From Defluviitaleaceae bacterium (lineage in GTDB: Bacteria > Bacillota > Clostridia > Lachnospirales > WQUN01): a stretch of DNA of 34,900 bases. The translations under genes were made by a program, and so were the position numbers. Shown here piece after piece: positions 6,951-28,951 of this stretch (its first letter is position 1; every line of letters starts with the position of its first letter). The DNA is taken from the NCBI GenBank assembly GCA_009786975.1, contig WRGX01000215.1, forward strand, positions 1-34,900. The letters run 5' to 3'. Below the pieces are notes generated by a model. It was not told where the DNA came from. It ran no database searches and worked only from the letters and a program-made list of their open reading frames with translations.

Positions 6951-7289
6951 TTATTCAGATTTGAAACTCTCTCTAACCATGCGCTCTATCCATTGCGAGG
7001 TATAGCCGCATGTCATAGCAATATGCTCTCTGTCGCGTCTGTTGGAACACGTTGACGCAATGGACACAACGTATTCGGGTCTGTAGAAATGTTTAGGAAA
7101 TCCAAGACTGCAACCTCGGAAGTGAATGTACATCCGTACAGCAACCTCAATTCCAAACACTTTTACAATCTCCCCGTAATCACCGCCGACAATTCCGCGG
7201 AAATCATCGGGATTGTTCATTTTTTCACCCGCCAATTCAATTAAATCTTGAATCAAGATTCGCTCTTTTTCGTCAGAAATCACAAGCAA
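6951..7289 (-). CDS. Mor-like transcriptional activator family protein (probable)
   Basis: ELAGEKMN...RGIVGGDYGEIVKVFGIEVAVRMYIHFRGCSLGFPKHFYRPEYVVSIA...HIAMTCGYTSQWIERMV resembles Mor/C layout; AAAGGAG 8 nt before TTG at 7289 (track ORF starts upstream at 7433). Confidence 0.55.
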   Translation of the reverse strand: MLVISDEKERILIQDLIELAGEKMNNPDDFRGIVGGDYGEIVKVFGIEVAVRMYIHFRGCSLGFPKHFYRPEYVVSIASTCSNRRDREHIAMTCGYTSQWIERMVRESFKSE

Positions 7290-7502
7290 TGCGCTCACTC
7301 CTTTCAACATTATGGATATTTTAGTAGCATAATTTTCCATTCGCAAATGTGAGAGCGAATCGAAAGCGGAAGTAATAATCATGGTGAAAATCAAATGCGT
7401 TTTGCAAGTGAAAACACCATGTAAAAAGCACAATCCACGCGGAACATAGAAGCCTCTGTTTCATCGCCATTACCCTTGCCCTACTGGGCTATACCTATGT
7501 CC

Positions 7503-7877
7503 CTACGCTAAAAAGTCTTTGATAATGGTAGTTCGCTCTGCTCCGTCCTTGTCCGCGTCCTGTACGCATAGCAGTAGCGCGTACTCGTGTAACTCCTCCA
7601 GTACCAAGGTAAGAATACGCTCGGTTGTGTCGGATTGGGTATCGTCTGCATTGAAGAATCCGCACATGGTAATAAACTTGCTATCGTCCGCGAAGCGTTG
7701 AAAATAGTTTTCGGGAAAAATACCATCGATTTCTTCAAGACAGAATAAATGCCCTTCTTGGAATAAAGATTCTCCGTCATCTAATATGAAGCCTTTGAAA
7801 TGCGCGGTGAGATACTTTTCCAGTTTTTTGCTAATTTCGACTGCGTTCATTCCTTTAACGCTCAAGCCCTTGCCCAT
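7503..7877 (-). CDS. Hypothetical accessory protein
   Basis: GAAGGTG RBS before ATG 7877; coherent acidic 124-aa product. Confidence 0.55.
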   Translation of the reverse strand: MGKGLSVKGMNAVEISKKLEKYLTAHFKGFILDDGESLFQEGHLFCLEEIDGIFPENYFQRFADDSKFITMCGFFNADDTQSDTTERILTLVLEELHEYALLLCVQDADKDGAERTTIIKDFLA

Positions 7878-7903
7878 AAGTTCACCTTCTCTGTATAAAA
7901 ATA

Positions 7904-7930
7904 AGCCCGACAAAAAATCCTTGTCAGGCT
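7904..7930 (-). other. 9-bp-stem hairpin with U-rich tail upstream of ORF 7503-7877
   Basis: Minus strand AGCCTGACA-aggattttt-TGTCGGGCT-TATTTTTATA. Confidence 0.75.
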
Positions 7931-7989
7931 GTACAGCTACTAAAAAAATAATATACGATTGATTTTTTGATAAATACGGTTTAGTATGC

Positions 7990-8092
7990 GCGGCAAAGCC
8001 GCTACAGCCCTATTTTGGCTCGTGCCTCGCCAAAACAGGGAATCCATGACAATATGTAGACAAAAAAGGTGACGAGCGTTAACGCCGTCACC
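7990..8092. other. Cluster of three hairpins in the distal flank of the integrative element
   Basis: gcggc-aaa-gccgc (7990-8002); ccctattttggc/gccaaaacaggg (8008-8040); ggtgacg-a-gcgttaacgc-cgtcacc flanked by A-runs (8068-8092). Confidence 0.65.
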
Positions 8093-8297
8093 AAAAAAAT
8101 CGCGCTCAATCAGAATTTTTGAAGCAAGCACCCCAAAGCGACGTCGCTTGCGTCGCTCGTTGGTCGCTTCCTTGAAATTATTGGACGAGTAAAATGATTT
8201 TTCAGCGTCCATTCGTCGCCGCAATAGGTGAAACCAATTGAAAACAAACGCGAATACATACGAATGAGTGACAAGAATTTCCATAATTCAGGACATG

Positions 8298-8343
8298 AAA
8301 AAAGGTTAAATTACTGAACAAACCCAGTAAACTCAACCTTTTT
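8298..8343 (-). terminator. Terminator-like hairpin downstream of tRNA-Trp
   Basis: Minus strand AAAAAGGTTgagtTTACTGggtttgttCAGTAAtttAACCTTTTTTC, imperfect stem ending in a T-run. Confidence 0.6.
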
Positions 8344-8360
8344 CATTTTCCCCGATATTA

Positions 8361-8433
8361 CAGGGGCAGAAGGATTTGAACCCTCGACATTCGGTTTTGG
8401 AGACCGACGCTCTACCAGCTGAACTATACCCCT
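8361..8433 (-). tRNA. tRNA-Trp (CCA anticodon)
   Basis: Minus strand AGGGGTATAGTTCAGCTGGTAGAGCGTCGGTCTCCAAAACCGAATGTCGAGGGTTCGAATCCTTCTGCCCCTG; acceptor, D, anticodon (CTCCAAA loop) and T arms all fold; GGTTCGAAT T-loop present. Confidence 0.95.
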
Positions 8434-8527
8434 AAAGCGGGACAGGGGGGTGCCCCGCAAATTTTATTATAGAATGGAAGTGATTGACTGTCAATTGAAT
8501 TTTGAATATTATTGGAGGGAATACATA

Positions 8528-9469
8528 TTGAGGGAGTGGAAGCGCGTGGAAAAATCTAACGAGCGGATTGCTATGCGGGTTGCGCGGAACAGTATCCTGA
8601 TAAACGTTGGGTTGGCGGCGTTTAAACTTTTTGCAGGGCTTGTTGGCGGCTCGGCGGCGATGGTTGCCGACGCGGTGCATTCTATTACGGATTTGGTCGG
8701 CACGGCTATCGCGATTGTCGGGATAAAATTGGCGGGGCGCAAGGCGGATAAGGACCATCCCTATGGACACGAGCGGTTCGAATGCGTGGCAACGCTTGCG
8801 CTGGCGGTGCTGATTTGCGTTGTGGGGCTTGGCATCGGATGGAGCGGTGTGCAAACTGTTTTTGCGGATTTGGCGGGAGAGCTTGAAACGCCGGAGGCGC
8901 GCTTGCTTGTTCTGCCGCTTATTGCGGCGGCGGCTTCGATTGCTGTGAAAGAGGGCATTTTTTGGTACGTGCGGGCGGCGGCGAAAAAAATTGACTCCGG
9001 CGCGCTTATGGCGGACGCTTGGCATTCCCGTGCCGACGGGCTTTCATCCATCGGCAGCTGTATCGGAATCTTGGGCGCGATGCTTGGGCATCCCGTTATG
9101 GACGCGGTTGCCGCCGTTGTTATTTGCTTGTTTATCGTGAAAACCGCGGTGCAAATTGCCGTGGAATCGCTGGGAAAAATGACCGACCGCGCTTGTGATG
9201 ACGAGACCGTTGAGGCTATGCGTGCGCTTATTTTGGCGCAAGAGGCGGTTGCGTCCGTTGATGTTTTGCGCACGCGGATTTTTGGTAATCGGATTTATGT
9301 TGACGTTGAAATCGGCGTTGACGCCGAGGCGACTTTTCGTCGGGCGCACGATGTTTCGCATCGTGTGCATGATGCGATTGAAGCGGAATTTCCAAAGGTG
9401 AAGCACTGTAAAGTTCATGCGAATCCGGTGGAGCCGACCACGGCGGCGGGGGACGCCGAGGGGGTATAG
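8528..9469 (+). CDS. Cation diffusion facilitator (CDF) efflux transporter
   Basis: GGSAAMVADAVHSITDLVGTAIAIVGIKLAGRKADKDHPYGHERFE plus second ALMADAWHSRADGLSS motif; TTG start at 8528 behind GGAGGG. Confidence 0.9.
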   Translation: MREWKRVEKSNERIAMRVARNSILINVGLAAFKLFAGLVGGSAAMVADAVHSITDLVGTAIAIVGIKLAGRKADKDHPYGHERFECVATLALAVLICVVGLGIGWSGVQTVFADLAGELETPEARLLVLPLIAAAASIAVKEGIFWYVRAAAKKIDSGALMADAWHSRADGLSSIGSCIGILGAMLGHPVMDAVAAVVICLFIVKTAVQIAVESLGKMTDRACDDETVEAMRALILAQEAVASVDVLRTRIFGNRIYVDVEIGVDAEATFRRAHDVSHRVHDAIEAEFPKVKHCKVHANPVEPTTAAGDAEGV

Positions 9470-9629
9470 TGTCCCATCCCGCAAAAAAGCGAAGTTGCCG
9501 CGCGGTCTTTTCGCCGAAAGCCTGCGTCAGCACTCTCCTTGCGTGCCTAAAGGCACGCGGCGTCGGTGCTTCCTTGTCTTTCGACGAAAATCCTCGCGCG
9601 GCAACTTCGCTTTTTTGCGGGATGGGACA
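9470..9629. mobile_element. 160-nt palindromic element with 35-bp perfect terminal inverted repeats (MITE-like)
   Basis: tgtcccatcccgcaaaaaagcgaagttgccgcgcg (9470-9504) is the exact reverse complement of 9595-9629; internal halves also partly complementary around gcgtgcc-taaa-ggcacgc; flanked on both sides by ATAG. Confidence 0.8.
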
Positions 9630-9657
9630 ATAGTCGAATGCAAAATTTTGAAAGCGA

Positions 9658-10554
9658 GTGAAAAATGTGATAATCGACAGATTGATTGGGCGTATTCGCG
9701 AAACCGCGCCGATTGTTGTGGGGCTTGACCCGCGGCTTGAGCAGATTCCTTCATATATAAAGGAAGGGCGGACCGCGCCGGATGCTTTTTTTGAGTTTAA
9801 CAAGGGGATTATCGACGCGGTTTGCGATATTGTTCCCGCCGTTAAGCCGCAAATTGCGATGTACGAACAGTATGGAGAAAAAGGGCGTGCGTGTTATCTG
9901 CGGACGATTAAATATGCGCAACAAAAGGGTCTTGTCGCACTCGGTGACGTCAAGCGCGGCGACATCGCAAGCACGGCAGAGGCGTATTCTGCAGGACATT
10001 TGGGACGATTGCGTGCCAGTGGAAAGCCTCCCGTGCGCGCTGATTTTATCACGGTCAACCCGTATCTCGGCCTCGACTCGGTTAGCCCGTATTTTGCGGA
10101 CATGCAAGCACATGACAAGGGGATTTTTGTTTTGGTGAAAACGTCGAACCCCGGCAGTCGCGACATACAGGACTTAATTTTGCAGAACGGCAAGCCGCTT
10201 TACGAGCATGTTGGCGGGCTTGTGGAAAAATGGGGCGCGGATTTTGTCGGCGCGGAGGGGTACAGCGCGGTTGGCGCGGTTGTCGGCGCGACGCATCCCG
10301 AAGAAGCCGCGCGGTTACGGAAAATTATGCCGCACACGTTTTTTCTTGTGCCGGGCTACGGTGCGCAGGGCGGCAGCGGGAAGGATTTGGCGGGACTTTG
10401 GGACGGCGATAAATTCGGCATGATTGTGAACAGTTCGCGCGGGATTACCGGCGCGTATCTTTCCGGCGAGTTTAAACGCGACGAAAAGGATTTTGCCTCC
10501 GCCGCAAGGGATGCCGCTGTTGAAATGAAGCGGGATTTGGAGGCGTTTATGTAG
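9658..10554 (+). CDS. pyrF: Orotidine 5'-phosphate decarboxylase
   Basis: VVGLDPRLEQIP...FNKGIIDAVCDIVPAVKPQIAMYEQYG...GLVALGDVKRGDIASTAEAYSAGHLG...ADFITVNPYLGLDSV. Confidence 0.93.
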   Translation: MKNVIIDRLIGRIRETAPIVVGLDPRLEQIPSYIKEGRTAPDAFFEFNKGIIDAVCDIVPAVKPQIAMYEQYGEKGRACYLRTIKYAQQKGLVALGDVKRGDIASTAEAYSAGHLGRLRASGKPPVRADFITVNPYLGLDSVSPYFADMQAHDKGIFVLVKTSNPGSRDIQDLILQNGKPLYEHVGGLVEKWGADFVGAEGYSAVGAVVGATHPEEAARLRKIMPHTFFLVPGYGAQGGSGKDLAGLWDGDKFGMIVNSSRGITGAYLSGEFKRDEKDFASAARDAAVEMKRDLEAFM

Positions 10555-12197: not shown

Positions 12198-12411
12198 AGG
12201 CGGTCAGATGTTACGAAAACTGTTCGTATCCTCTCCTTTATTTGCCATTTAATTGGGTTAAATCTTGACATTTTGTAATATTTTGCGATATTTACATAGT
12301 TTCGATCATAGTTTCGATGATGGTCTTAGGAATCAACAAACTCAAAAAAATAATGCCCCATTGATTCAATAGGGCATTGGCTTTTCGCGCCATTTCAGCG
12401 TGAATGTTTCA

Positions 12412-12718
12412 TGGTAAGCTGCTCCCGGCTTCGAGGGAATACGTCGCCGCCGACACGTGTCCCCGGTGTCCAATGCGCGCAGTGCGCGCTTTTTTATTTT
12501 TGCAAAAAAGAGTCGGCGAGTGACACTCGCCGACTCTTTTTTTATGGGCTGGGAAACTGCTCCCGGCTTCGAGGGAACGCGTCGCCGCCCACACATGCCC
12601 CCGGTGCCCACCGCGCGCTTGGCGCGCTTTTTCAGCCAACAGTAAACTGCTCCCGGCTTCGAGGGAACGCGTCGCCGCCCGCACATGCCCCCGGTGCCCA
12701 CCGCGCGCTTGGCGCGCT
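12412..12718 (+). repeat. Array of three ~80-90-bp interspersed repeat units with an embedded hairpin module
   Basis: ggcttcgag anchors at 12427, 12565, 12655 (spacings 138 and 90); units run ctgctcccggcttcgaggga...ccccggtg(t/c)cc...gcgcgc-ttg-gcgcgc-ttttt. Confidence 0.93.
12504..12543. repeat. Perfect palindromic hairpin module (13-bp arms, 1-nt centre), A6/T7 flanked
   Basis: aaaaaa-gagtcggcgagtg-a-cactcgccgactc-ttttttt. Confidence 0.9.
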
Positions 12719-13194
12719 CACCTCGCTCCGAAAATTGAAAATTGCAGGCGGAGCGAGGTGGTTTCTTCAATTAAAACGGTGAACGAGCGTATGTAACCGT
12801 GCGTATTTTGAAAATCGCGCAAAAAGTCGATTGTTCCGTCAAAATTGCCGTCGTATTCGGCGGCGACGCGTATTTCGTAGAGATTTTCATTTGGCGAGAT
12901 TTGTGATAGATTAGAAATCTCGTCGGTGGAAAATTCCAAAATTTCAAGCCCGAACTCCGCGCCGCGAGAGGCTGTTTCCGCGAGGGCGGACAAAATTTCT
13001 TCGTAATTCAAAAAGACGACGTCCGCGGAACTGCGAAATATTTCGCTCGAGGCGGCGTATCTTTGCTCCAAATTTCGCAGGCTTGAGAGTCCTGTTTGAA
13101 GCGAAAGCGCAGTCGGCGCAAGCCAAAAAAATCCCGCGAAAACGAGAAGCGCAAAGTTGAAAAGTCCAAAAATCCAAAATATTTTTTCTCTCAT
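12718..13194 (-). CDS. Membrane-anchored protein resembling PilO/GspM-type pilus assembly proteins
   Basis: N-terminal TM, coiled-coil segment, then a small alpha/beta domain (YEIRVAAEYDGNFDGTIDFLRDFQNTHGYIRSFTVLIE). Confidence 0.5.
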   Translation of the reverse strand: MREKIFWIFGLFNFALLVFAGFFWLAPTALSLQTGLSSLRNLEQRYAASSEIFRSSADVVFLNYEEILSALAETASRGAEFGLEILEFSTDEISNLSQISPNENLYEIRVAAEYDGNFDGTIDFLRDFQNTHGYIRSFTVLIEETTSLRLQFSIFGAR

Positions 13195-16300: not shown

Positions 16301-16383
16301 GGCGTGTTGCCACTACGCCCTAAGGCGTGGGAGCACACTCCTCGCATCCTCGCTACATATCGTACGATTGCGATTTTTTTTAT

Positions 16384-16778
16384 ACGCCGGGAAACTGCTC
16401 CCGGCTTCGAGGGAATGCGTCGTCGCCTACATATGTCCCCGGTGTCCAATGCGCGCTTGGCGCGCTTTTTTGTACGCCGGGAAACTGCTCCCGGCTTCGA
16501 GGGAATGTGCCGCCGCCTACATATGTCCCCGGTGTCCAATGCGCGCTTGGCGCGCTTTTTTTGTACGCCGGGAAACTGCTCCCGGCTTCGAGGGAATGTG
16601 CCGCCGCCTACATGTGTCCCCGGTGCCCAATGCGCGCTTGGCGCGCTTTTTTTGTTGCCGAGGAAACTGCGCAAAAAAACGAGTCGGCGAGTGTCACTCG
16701 CCGACTCGTTTTTTTTATACGCCGGGAAACTGCTCCCGGCTTCGAGGGAATGCGTCGTCGCCTACATATGTCCCCGCG
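16384..16778 (+). repeat. Tandem array of three full and two partial repeat units with an embedded hairpin module
   Basis: cgccgggaaactgctcccggcttcgagggaatg...cctacatatgtccccggtgtccaatgcgcgcttggcgcgctttttt; gaaactgc anchors at 16391, 16481, 16572, 16663, 16726. Confidence 0.95.
16673..16716. repeat. Palindromic hairpin module (cgagtcggcgagtg-t-cactcgccgactcg)
   Basis: Perfect 14-bp arms flanked by A7 and T8. Confidence 0.9.
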
Positions 16779-16825
16779 CAAAAAAACCTTCCCATTTTTT
16801 CATTTTTTTTCTTAACGATAAATTC

Positions 16826-25777: not shown

Positions 25778-25778
25778 C

Positions 25779-25856
25779 ACCGGGGACATGTGTTGGAAGC
25801 GACACATGCTCTCGAAGCCAAATTCGAAGCCGGATTCGAGAGCCGGACTCAAAAGG
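25779..25856 (-). repeat. Degenerate repeat unit, opposite orientation
   Basis: caccggggacatgtgttggaagcgacacatgctctcgaagcc; matches the reverse complement of the family core. Confidence 0.75.
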
Positions 25857-26192: not shown

Positions 26193-26262
26193 TGCGCACC
26201 GGACACCGGGGACATGTGTCGGAATCGGCACATTCTCTCGAAGCCGGGAGCAGTTTTTTAGC
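26193..26262 (-). repeat. Single repeat unit, opposite orientation
   Basis: accggacaccggggacatgtgtcggaatcggcacattctctcgaagccgggagcagttttt. Confidence 0.85.
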
Positions 26263-26271
26263 GAATAAAAG

Positions 26272-26294
26272 AGGGGGCGCAAGCCCCTTTTTTT
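26272..26294 (+). terminator. Intrinsic terminator-like hairpin
   Basis: agggggc-gcaa-gcccc-ttttttt. Confidence 0.65.
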
Positions 26295-26312: not shown

Positions 26313-26930
26313 TTGGGAGGAATTCTCTTGCTTGTAACCGTTATTCTTGTTGCGCTTATAATTTGCTTTATGGTTGTGACGGTTTTTTCGCTCTCTGCCA
26401 TGCTTATTGTGCGGCGGCGCGAGCAGAAATACGAAGGCGCGCAAAAGCTCGAAAAGGCAATAAGCGAGCTTGACTCCGCGCTTGATACCGCGCTTAAAGA
26501 AATAAACAAAATGGGCGGCTTGGTTCAGGCCGATGTTGACGAAAAATACAAATCCATGCTTTTTTTGTACAGCCTTGTTGAGGAAAAACAAAAGGAAATC
26601 GGCGAAATTGAGGCGAATGGGGTTGCGCCGCGCGTTGTCGCGGGCGAATCGCAAGCCGCGCAGGGGCAGGCGTACGCGCACGCACAATCGCCGCCGCAAC
26701 CGGTCATAACGTCAAGCGACGTCGTAACCGCCGCCGAAAAGGAAATGCTTGCCGTCTCTCCCGCCGCGCCTCCGCCCGAACCCAAGCGGCCTCCAAAATT
26801 CGCAAATTCCAAGCACAAACAAATTTGGGAAATGCGCGAAAGCGGCAAGGCCGTCTCCGATATCGCACGGGAATTCAGCATGGGGCAGGGCGAGGTTAAA
26901 CTTATTTTGGAAATTATTGATAGGGGATAG
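26313..26930 (+). CDS. DUF6115/SwrB-like membrane protein at the end of the flagellar operon
   Basis: N-terminal TM, coiled coil, C-terminal HTH-like KHKQIWEMRESGKAVSDIAREFSMGQGEVKLILEI. Confidence 0.65.
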   Translation: MGGILLLVTVILVALIICFMVVTVFSLSAMLIVRRREQKYEGAQKLEKAISELDSALDTALKEINKMGGLVQADVDEKYKSMLFLYSLVEEKQKEIGEIEANGVAPRVVAGESQAAQGQAYAHAQSPPQPVITSSDVVTAAEKEMLAVSPAAPPPEPKRPPKFANSKHKQIWEMRESGKAVSDIAREFSMGQGEVKLILEIIDRG

Positions 26931-26950: not shown

Positions 26951-28951
26951 CTAACAGCCCTTTGGTATTCGGTCTGCTCGACGCAGCAGCGATACTGTCT
27001 CCACCTTGCCCGTGTGGGGGAACATATCGACGGGCTGCACCGTGTCGAGGCTGTAGCCTCCGGCGGCAAGGATTTTCGCGTCTCGGGCGAAAGTTGCGGG
27101 GTCGCATGAGATATACACGACTCGTGGAATTTTTGCAGAAATTATCGCGTCCAGCAGGATGCGGTCGCAGCCTTTTCGTGGCGGGTCGAGGAAGATTATG
27201 TCGGGAATTTTGGCGGGAGACGTCATGAGTTTTGGCAAAACTTCCTCTGTCGCGCCGCAAATAAATTCCGCGTTTGTTATGCCGTTTTTAGCGGCATTTT
27301 TTTTTGCGTCGGATATCGCGGCGGGAACGATGTCGATGCCGAGGATGGGGTGCGCTTGGCGCGTTTTTTCGTGAGGCGGGAGAGCGCGTCCGGCTTCGAG
27401 AGCATGTGTCGCCTCTGACACGTGTTCGCGGTTCCCACTGTGCGCTTGGCGCGCTTCTTCGTGAGGCGGGAGAGCGCGTCCGGCTTCGAGGGCATGTGTC
27501 GCCTCTGACACGTGTTCGCGGTTCCCACTGTGCGCTTGGCGCGCTTCTTCGTGAGGCGGGAGAGCGCGTCCGGCTTCGAGAGCATGTGTCGCCGCCGACA
27601 CGTGTTCGCGGTGCCCATTGCGCGCTTGGCGCGCCGCTGCGTAGAGGGTTACTGTGCCGACGCCGCAATGTGCGTCTATTGCGTATTGCGTGCCGTTAAG
27701 GTCGGCTTGCGCGATTGCGATTTCGTATAAAATTTTTGTTTGCACCGGGTTTACTTGAAAAAATGACGGCGCGGAAAGCTCAAACTCTATGTCACCGATT
27801 TTTTCGCGAATAAATCCCGTTCCGTGTAATATCCTAAAATTTTCCTCTGCACCGTCAAAAATCGTGTTGTTTTTCGCGGTGTTTTTGTTTGTAAGAACCG
27901 TTGTGACGCCTGTTGCGGCTAAATTCTCAACAAGCTCCCCGCTGTGTGGGAGTTTTTTTCCGTTCAAAACAATCGTGACCATTACCTCGTGCGTTGCAAA
28001 GCTCGTCCGAACAACTATGTGTCTCACAAGACCCTTGTGCGCGATTTCATCATATGCCGAAATTTTATGCCTCCGCATATGTTCCTTTATGACGGCAAGT
28101 ACCCCGACATGCGATTCATGCTGGATTTCGCAGTCGTCGACCTCGATTAAACGATGGCTTCGCGCCGCGTACATTCCGATGGAAAAATCGCTGATGTTAC
28201 TGACGCTAACATCAACGATTTTTTTATGGGCGAGGAAGCTGCCCCCGGCTTCGAGGGAATGTGTCGCCGCCGACACATGCCCCCGGTGCCCACTGCGCTC
28301 TTGGCGCGCTTTTTTATTTTGCAAAAAAGAGTCGGCGAGTGACACTCGCCGACTCTTTTTTTCATGCGCAGGGAAACTGCCCACGGCTTCGAGGGAATGT
28401 GTCGACTCCGACACATGTCCCCGGTGTTCACTGCGCGCTTGGCGCGCTTTTTCATGCGCAGGGAAACTGCCCACGGCTTCGAGGGAATGTGTCGACTCCG
28501 ACACATGTCCCCGGTGTCCACTGCGCGCTTGGCGCGCCGGGACAACCGGGAAAACTGCTTTATTGCGGTAGCGAGAGGGGTTTTCCATGCCGATTACATC
28601 CAAAACAGGCGGAGCAACAAAGCCGCCGATTTTTTCAAGCGCGGTTATTACAAATTGTTTTTTGAAGGCGAGTTGCGCGGAATATTCGCAGTGCCGAAAC
28701 TGACATCCCCCGCAATTTGCCGCCACGCCACACGTACTTTTTACACGAAACGGCGAAGGTTTCACGATTTGCATAATTTTCCCGTATCCGTAATTTTTTT
28801 TCACTTTTACAATTAGCGCGTCAATTTTTTCATCCGGCAACGCGCCGTCAACAAACACAACGAAGCCGCCAATTTCGCCGACTCCGAAGCCTTTTTCGGT
28901 CACGCTTTTTATCTCGACCATGTGTCGCGAATTTTTATGCACGTTTGGCAT
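26951..28951 (-). CDS. rlmD: 23S rRNA (uracil-5)-methyltransferase, RlmD/RumA family, carrying two in-frame repeat insertions
   Basis: N-terminal TRAM-like segment, CGVAANCGGCQFRHCEY Fe-S motif, FFQVNPVQTKILYEIA, HCGVGTVTLYAA, IIFLDPPRKGCDRILLDAI, VYISCDPATFARD; 666 aa, of which ~196 are repeat-encoded. Confidence 0.9.
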   Translation of the reverse strand: MPNVHKNSRHMVEIKSVTEKGFGVGEIGGFVVFVDGALPDEKIDALIVKVKKNYGYGKIMQIVKPSPFRVKSTCGVAANCGGCQFRHCEYSAQLAFKKQFVITALEKIGGFVAPPVLDVIGMENPSRYRNKAVFPVVPARQARSGHRGHVSESTHSLEAVGSFPAHEKARQARSEHRGHVSESTHSLEAVGSFPAHEKKSRRVSLADSFLQNKKARQERSGHRGHVSAATHSLEAGGSFLAHKKIVDVSVSNISDFSIGMYAARSHRLIEVDDCEIQHESHVGVLAVIKEHMRRHKISAYDEIAHKGLVRHIVVRTSFATHEVMVTIVLNGKKLPHSGELVENLAATGVTTVLTNKNTAKNNTIFDGAEENFRILHGTGFIREKIGDIEFELSAPSFFQVNPVQTKILYEIAIAQADLNGTQYAIDAHCGVGTVTLYAAARQARNGHREHVSAATHALEAGRALPPHEEARQAHSGNREHVSEATHALEAGRALPPHEEARQAHSGNREHVSEATHALEAGRALPPHEKTRQAHPILGIDIVPAAISDAKKNAAKNGITNAEFICGATEEVLPKLMTSPAKIPDIIFLDPPRKGCDRILLDAIISAKIPRVVYISCDPATFARDAKILAAGGYSLDTVQPVDMFPHTGKVETVSLLRRADRIPKGC
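27350..27635 (+). repeat. Three tandem 90-bp repeat units inside rlmD (insertion 2)
   Basis: gaggcgggagagcgcgtccggcttcgag(a/g)gcatgtgtcgcc...gacacgtgttcgcggt...gcgcgcttggcgcgc at exact 90-bp period; encodes (ARQAxxGxREHVSxATHALEAGRALPPHEx)x3. Confidence 0.96.
28220..28537 (+). repeat. Three repeat units plus one hairpin module inside rlmD (insertion 1)
   Basis: ggcttcgag anchors at 28247, 28385, 28475 (138 and 90 bp spacing); encodes 30+30+16+30 residues. Confidence 0.96.
28323..28362. repeat. Palindromic hairpin module inside the rlmD ORF
   Basis: aaaaaa-gagtcggcgagtg-a-cactcgccgactc-ttttttt; identical core to 12504-12543; read as KSRRVSLADSFLQNKK. Confidence 0.95.

Follow-up and report, generated by a model that had tools for sequence, protein, structure and literature searches.

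Palindromic repeats that lie in frame within housekeeping genes have been described in Rickettsia (RPE), Wolbachia (WPE) and Methanocaldococcus (PMC10969869, PMC3767692, PMC4224334, PMC2996958). The RPEs (Ogata et al., 2000) are summarized in PMC10969869 and PMC3767692, and WPE and WPE-like inserts occur in addA, addB and priA (PMC4224334). Most of what is known of such in-frame 'selfish' palindromes comes from Rickettsia and Wolbachia, intracellular bacteria that are hard to grow, so that their movement and tolerance are hard to test. The same kind of process is considered here in a non-rickettsial lineage, with far more copies and with close relatives that do and do not carry the repeats. 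Natural before-and-after pairs for rlmD, ligA, recG, rnr and hydG, among others, make insertion bias, tolerance, expression cost and the birth of peptides measurable, and those who annotate such genomes or predict structures from them must expect essential proteins to contain repeat-derived segments.

In this study, an rRNA methyltransferase gene containing two blocks of a repeat termed R90 was analyzed in a window of 34,900 nt, which is one whole contig of a draft assembly (2.21 Mb, 219 contigs, 92% complete). The source genome is denoted G000 and its sister species G003 and G009. An earlier note, made from the sequence alone, had described two independent in-frame insertions into an uninterrupted 666-residue RlmD/RumA-like frame with its catalytic motifs outside the inserts, by repeats of the same family as intergenic copies. 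It had proposed either RPE-like colonization of coding sequence that leaves a working protein or removal of the inserts by splicing or processing, and had named orthologue comparison and structure prediction as checks; both are reported here.

The rlmD gene and its two inserts

The gene (26951–28951, minus strand) starts with ATG and encodes 666 amino acids with no internal stop. Its product scores 400.6 bits against TIGR00479 (RumA/RlmD; cut-off 183.55) in a match broken into three stretches, and the closest solved structures are those of S. pneumoniae SP_1029, which is RlmCD, and E. coli RumA. Alignment of 49 sequences, with named bacteria included, showed that the Fe–S cysteines C74, C80, C83 and C274, the DPPRKG motif, SCDPAT (C616) and E651 are all kept; the columns of the four cysteines, SCDPAT and E651 are invariant or nearly so, and no such column lies inside either insert. 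By family score, Fe–S cysteines and the catalytic Cys and Glu, the protein is an RlmD/RlmCD-type 23S rRNA (uracil-C5)-methyltransferase; methylation of rRNA at U1939/U747 itself is inferred. The named RlmD sequences nearest to it are distant matches, mostly from Paenibacillus, Clostridia and relatives, and the host therefore does not look like a member of the Rickettsiales.

In an AlphaFold model of the 666-residue protein, the core has pLDDT values mostly above 90, with values below 50 at residues 149–210 and 214–252 (insert 1) and 463–528 (insert 2). The alignment was gapped over the inserts, and the low confidence there is therefore partly forced. The modelled core matches spRlmCD (5zq0) with a target-normalized TM-score of 0.94; the core fold, as predicted, and the catalytic motifs are intact. 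The 446 core codons are open, and their differences from G009 amount to 0.16, 0.12 and 0.43 at codon positions 1, 2 and 3. These are mainly third-position differences, and thus the core is still under constraint. The branch of G000 from the common ancestor is the longest of the three species (0.26 versus 0.18–0.19 in the sister species). That the enzyme works despite its inserts is an inference, made without activity, expression or protein data.

Insert 1 (28181–28537, minus strand) covers residues 139–257, about 119 codons, and was delimited by its sequence, by the 3–10 residues that 13 relatives hold there and by low pLDDT. In the coding direction it comprises R90–R90–palindrome–R90–A/T-flanked hairpin. 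Unit a, ARQARSGHRGHVSESTHSLEAVGSFPAHEK (28447–28537, minus strand), was recognized by repeat comparison and profile search, and unit b (28357–28446, minus strand) by repeat comparison, with a 98% match to unit a in tandem array. These are followed by a terminator-like palindrome of 39 nt, A6-GAGTCGGCGAGTG(T)CACTCGCCGACTC-T6, translated KKSRRVSLADSFLQ (28323–28361, no strand assigned; identified by fold and copy count), and by unit c, ARQERSGHRGHVSAATHSLEAGGSFLAHKK (28219–28314, minus strand; repeat comparison). The A/T-flanked hairpin, ATCGTTGATGTTA/TAACATCAGCGAT (28183–28226, no strand assigned), forms the 3' edge of the insert, folds at −20 kcal/mol (z −8.4) and is not found in the relatives. 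The repeat DNA proper extends over 28219–28537, and non-ancestral sequence reaches approximately 28181.

Insert 2 (27350–27634, minus strand) covers residues 442–534, about 93 codons, as determined by tandem-repeat search, comparison with G009 and pLDDT. It consists of three tandem 90-nt R90 units (3.2 copies, 95% match) closed by a repeated CGCGCCAAGCGC, and it lies in the loop joining the first SAM-domain helix to the next strand. R90 units are 95–98% identical within a block, and their identity to an intergenic reference unit is 80–91% for insert 1 and 72–74% for insert 2. Since the sites differ and the units are more alike within a block than between blocks, the two inserts represent independent events. 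Thus the open frame, the positions of the repeat blocks (27350–27634 and 28219–28537), the exclusion of the catalytic motifs from them and the independence of the insertions all held as claimed in the earlier note, and its estimate of about 90 residues for insert 2 compares with about 93 codons here. However, its value of about 106 residues for insert 1 was too small, as the roughly 119 codons include the 39-nt palindrome and the A/T-flanked hairpin.

RlmD was searched for in 41 genomes, 39 of which gave matches. In close relatives the pieces flanking both blocks abut, and all 13 aligned orthologues, nine of them from the same genus, lack both inserts, with approximately 3–10 residues at the site of insert 1 and approximately five at that of insert 2. 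The closest species, G009 and G003, are 73–81% identical to G000 in the RlmD core. This absence from the orthologues shows that both inserts are new to the G000 lineage, and it is proposed that rlmD took two hits after this lineage split from its sister species. The inserts are probably surface-exposed, near neutral and, as the model predicts, disordered. A chance open frame is ruled out by a null scan (0 matches) together with the orthologue comparison. An assembly artefact is rejected as the main explanation, although no read data were available, because a repeat-mediated mis-join would not give two inserts between contiguous halves; repeats cannot split gene halves that are contiguous in 13 relatives.

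A second intact rlmD, beside which the present copy would be decaying, was not found in the genome. The only other sizeable RumA-family frame is a paralogue of 481 amino acids (C182:12536–13978, L187, minus strand), whose own three in-frame R90-type repeats are located near the N-terminal third. Both RumA-family paralogues, rlmD and one of the C182 type, seem to be present in relatives.

Two repeat families and their copies in genes

R90 is a GC-rich multi-hairpin unit, usually of 90 nt (30 codons), with a consensus of 65% GC compared with 51% for the genome. The unit folds into three hairpins (z −3.3), and the composite reaches z −9.4. A profile search of 1.27 Mb of G000 (57% of the genome) gave 432 matches in 276 clusters, compared with none in a third-order Markov copy of the same sequence. 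Within the genus, R90 is abundant only in G000, G003 and G009, three species that form one group in the RlmD tree; weak matches occur in small number in G002 and G005, and a search of viral contigs gave none. The family membership of intergenic copies held as claimed, with R90 identified by repeat comparison at several sites in the window. An intergenic composite (12399–12722, minus strand) has the unit/palindrome/unit/unit spacing (138, 90) of insert 1, and an intergenic array (16375–16805, minus strand) contains a related palindrome at 16674–16713. Further copies lie just upstream of the ORF at 26313–26930 (26204–26284, plus strand, intergenic) and near the contig end (34687–34773, plus strand), and there is a core fragment at 25778–25819 (plus strand). 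Separately, the window contains a 38-nt inverted repeat (9467–9632) unlike R90; its arms, separated by 90 nt, are 97% complementary, and it might be a small mobile element.

The R90 consensus is free of stops in five of the six frames. Real copies have a mean of 4.58 open frames versus 3.57 in dinucleotide shuffles, so that readability arises mostly from composition, with some extra. Frame by frame, the proportion of non-genic copies that are open is 88, 77, 37, 79, 87 and 93%.

In a census of in-frame copies, flanks were scored as coding by frame for the 236 R90 clusters with enough flank. Forty clusters are open between coding flanks in the same frame and five contain a stop; in 13 the frame changes from one coding flank to the other, and some of these are likely to be gene boundaries. 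The remainder have one coding flank or none. Bacterial genomes are mostly coding. R90 is therefore depleted from genes, and the surviving genic copies are mostly in frame. By NCBIfam, the hosts include LigA (two sites), RecG, MnmG, RNase R (rnr), HydG (two sites), PurH, PurK and RecN, as well as PriA, ThiI, AroA, NspC, MurJ, an RqcH-like protein, a ClpA-like protein and pyrimidine-nucleoside phosphorylase. In pairwise alignments several of the G000 inserts are missing from the G003 orthologues, and the absence is clean for HydG against G009 and for a fused hydrogenase-type frame (L201) against G003. Within 0.8 Mb, G003 carries its own set of 13 in-frame R90 clusters, several of them tandem. 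The family is common to the species, whereas the insertion sites mostly are not. Among individual genes, G003 recG (C58, approximately 7202–9718) is an open frame of 852 codons with its own repeat insertions at positions unlike those of G000. In G009 RNase R (L277), an unrelated A/T-flanked hairpin occupies the site of the R90 unit of G000; different inserts at one site suggest tolerant hot spots and further repeat families.

The spacing of tandem units is most often 90 nt, and it is a multiple of three in six of six cases inside genes versus 46 of 79 outside. Genic copies (n = 43) are read in five frames in total: sense 24, 10 and 4, and antisense 4 and 1. The dominant frame thus accounts for 24 of the 43, and four others are also used. 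The excess of sense copies inside genes (36:4, or 38 of 43 by frame count) is not accounted for by stop content (P about 1e-9). Outside genes, R90 lies mostly 3' of a gene and in its orientation (63:11), which may mean that it acts at mRNA 3' ends or that its insertion is oriented by transcription. The replication strand was rejected as the source of the orientation; of 34 units at which the gene and the GC skew point in opposite directions, 28 follow the gene, although the skew is a weak proxy. The antisense reading of R90 ends in a terminator-like GCGCGCTTGGCGCGC-TTTTT, which would account for selection against antisense copies in genes but leaves the orientation bias 3' of genes unexplained. 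In coding copies, substitutions are only weakly enriched at third positions, a pattern that resembles that of non-coding copies. Purifying selection on the R90 peptide was rejected on this ground, and the peptides therefore resemble tolerated filler more than conserved modules.

The palindrome of insert 1 belongs to a second family, GAGTCGGCGAGTG(A/T)CACTCGCCGACTC with the core GTCGGCGAGTGWCACTCGCCGAC, which is near-perfect. The exact 23-nt core occurs 322 times in G000 and not once in 40 relatives, and the 39-nt palindrome represents a very recent, species-specific expansion. Of 188 copies in the sequence analyzed, about 115 have an R90 unit no more than 60 nt away. Apart from that of rlmD, eight palindrome-containing clusters lie in frame with coding sequence on both sides, and six of these eight contain no R90. 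The copy in rlmD still has its A6/T6 flanks, and its folding energy is −29.2 kcal/mol (z −8.8).

A proposed mechanism and its rivals

The reading that is very likely to be correct is that R90 is a mobile, nearly stop-free palindromic repeat, the coding insertions of which survive, as for RPEs, only when they are sense, in frame and in tolerant loops. R90 would be short and non-autonomous, and would have spread through G000 and its two sister species, mostly into 3' flanks and sometimes into genes. A sense insertion with a length of 3n would do no more than add a peptide, for example ARQARSGHRGHVSAATHSLEAGSSFPAHKK. Selection would remove copies that cause a frameshift, introduce a stop, fall in a structured region or have the antisense orientation, whereas those in tolerant loops would be maintained, would expand in tandem in steps of whole units and would then drift. 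In rlmD, two such hits would have occurred with the core enzyme retained. Insertion into pre-existing genes, the frame and strand bias, local tandem expansion and species-specific spread are shown; mobility as the source of R90, and purifying selection for frame, strand and site as the filter, are inferred. RPE-like colonization of coding sequence, as proposed in the earlier note, is supported and extends to at least 40 in-frame clusters, with the working protein still an inference.

With regard to the mover, no match to the Y1 (IS200/IS605-like) RAYT transposase family, PF01797, was found in G000 (assembly 92% complete), G003 or G009, and a RAYT/REP mover was rejected. A reverse-transcriptase mover was rejected likewise, as none was found in G000. 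A target-site duplication is weakly suggested by the comparison of first-unit flanks with the unit tail (2.76 versus 2.46 of 9 when permuted, P = 0.0065). A bolder reading, which we regard as improbable, is that R90 and its companion palindrome are an active mobile pair with insertion oriented by transcription of the target; it rests on the sense orientation inside and 3' of genes, which follows the gene and not the strand skew. If true, this would be a mobilization unlike that of REP/RAYT or ordinary MITEs, with a steady feed of disordered peptides into essential proteins.

Among the rivals to a tolerated mobile repeat, the first holds that rlmD is decaying or attenuated, in that the repeats, above all the palindrome, block full-length expression and the frame stays open merely because the repeats are poor in stops. 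The strongly folding, U6-tailed palindrome, the long G000 branch and the presence of the C182 paralogue speak in its favour. A U6-tailed palindrome in mid-frame resembles an intrinsic terminator and might curtail rlmD expression, for which there are no data; such attenuation is the main risk to reading rlmD as a working gene. However, the catalytic and Fe–S motifs are kept, the core codons are open and their differences are concentrated at third positions. Furthermore, similar insertions occur in genes that are hard to dispense with, such as ligA and rnr, and the paralogue also appears to be present in relatives and is itself repeat-bearing. This explanation is considered very unlikely.

There is equally little to recommend the view that selection maintains the repeats for a function, either as protein modules or as REP/BIME-like structures at mRNA 3' ends, the coding copies being co-opted functional peptides. 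The sense bias inside and 3' of genes and the dominance of one frame support it; however, the peptides come from five different frames, the third-position excess in coding copies is only weak and similar in kind to that in non-coding ones, and the insertion sites are mostly not common to the species that have the family.

Finally, removal of the inserts by RNA splicing, translational bypassing or protein processing to give a protein of normal size found no support and is all but excluded: the inserts do contain strong RNA hairpins, and bypassed palindromic elements exist in yeast (Magnusiomyces) mitochondria (cited in PMC6649704), but neither a group I/II intron nor an intein is indicated (Rfam gave no intron match in the window, the genome has no reverse transcriptase and the frame contains no intein domain), the in-gene tandem spacing is always 3n, which bypass does not need, the copies are read in several frames without a fixed take-off sequence, and splicing is unnecessary since the inserts are open and 3n long.

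Comparison with known systems

REP/BIME elements (PMC3733652) are, like R90, GC-rich hairpin repeats. They are linked to RAYT transposases, whereas G000 is without one. The SPRITE, BOX and RUP elements of Streptococcus pneumoniae (PMC3049150) resemble the present case in the species-level amplification of small hairpin repeats, and SPRITE has been named as terminator-like (PMC10969869), as the 39-nt palindrome also appears to be; however, in-frame coding insertion across dozens of genes is a feature of the present genome. PARCELs (PMC2996958) share with R90 the tandem, palindromic and protein-coding character of the repeat, but they are 75-nt/25-residue amphipathic DUF285-type domains in membrane proteins of unknown function, whereas the hosts of R90 are ordinary enzymes; no DUF285/TIGR02167-type 25-residue repeat was among the Pfam or NCBIfam matches of the rlmD frame.

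The closest parallels are found in WPEs and RPEs. Like R90, WPEs form several palindromic in-frame inserts per housekeeping gene, although their host belongs to a different bacterial group. R90 agrees with this type of element in being a many-copy short palindrome with in-frame insertion into unrelated genes; that the inserts fit the three-dimensional fold is seen for rlmD only. As to the single conserved peptide expected of each family, one frame of R90 dominates (24 of 43) and four others are in use. RPEs are likewise short and palindromic, intergenic as well as coding, and their in-frame insertions into unrelated housekeeping genes seem to leave the fold intact. By analogy, R90 may be said to act like an RPE in a different host, without implying sequence kinship to the named RPE or WPE families. 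It differs in that its host is Bacillota-related and not a member of the Rickettsiales, in its slightly shorter unit (90 nt, compared with about 100–150 nt), in its hundreds rather than tens of copies and in its 90-nt tandem arrays. Furthermore, unlike RPEs, R90 is read in at least five frames, has a second palindrome family alongside it and forms two blocks in one gene.
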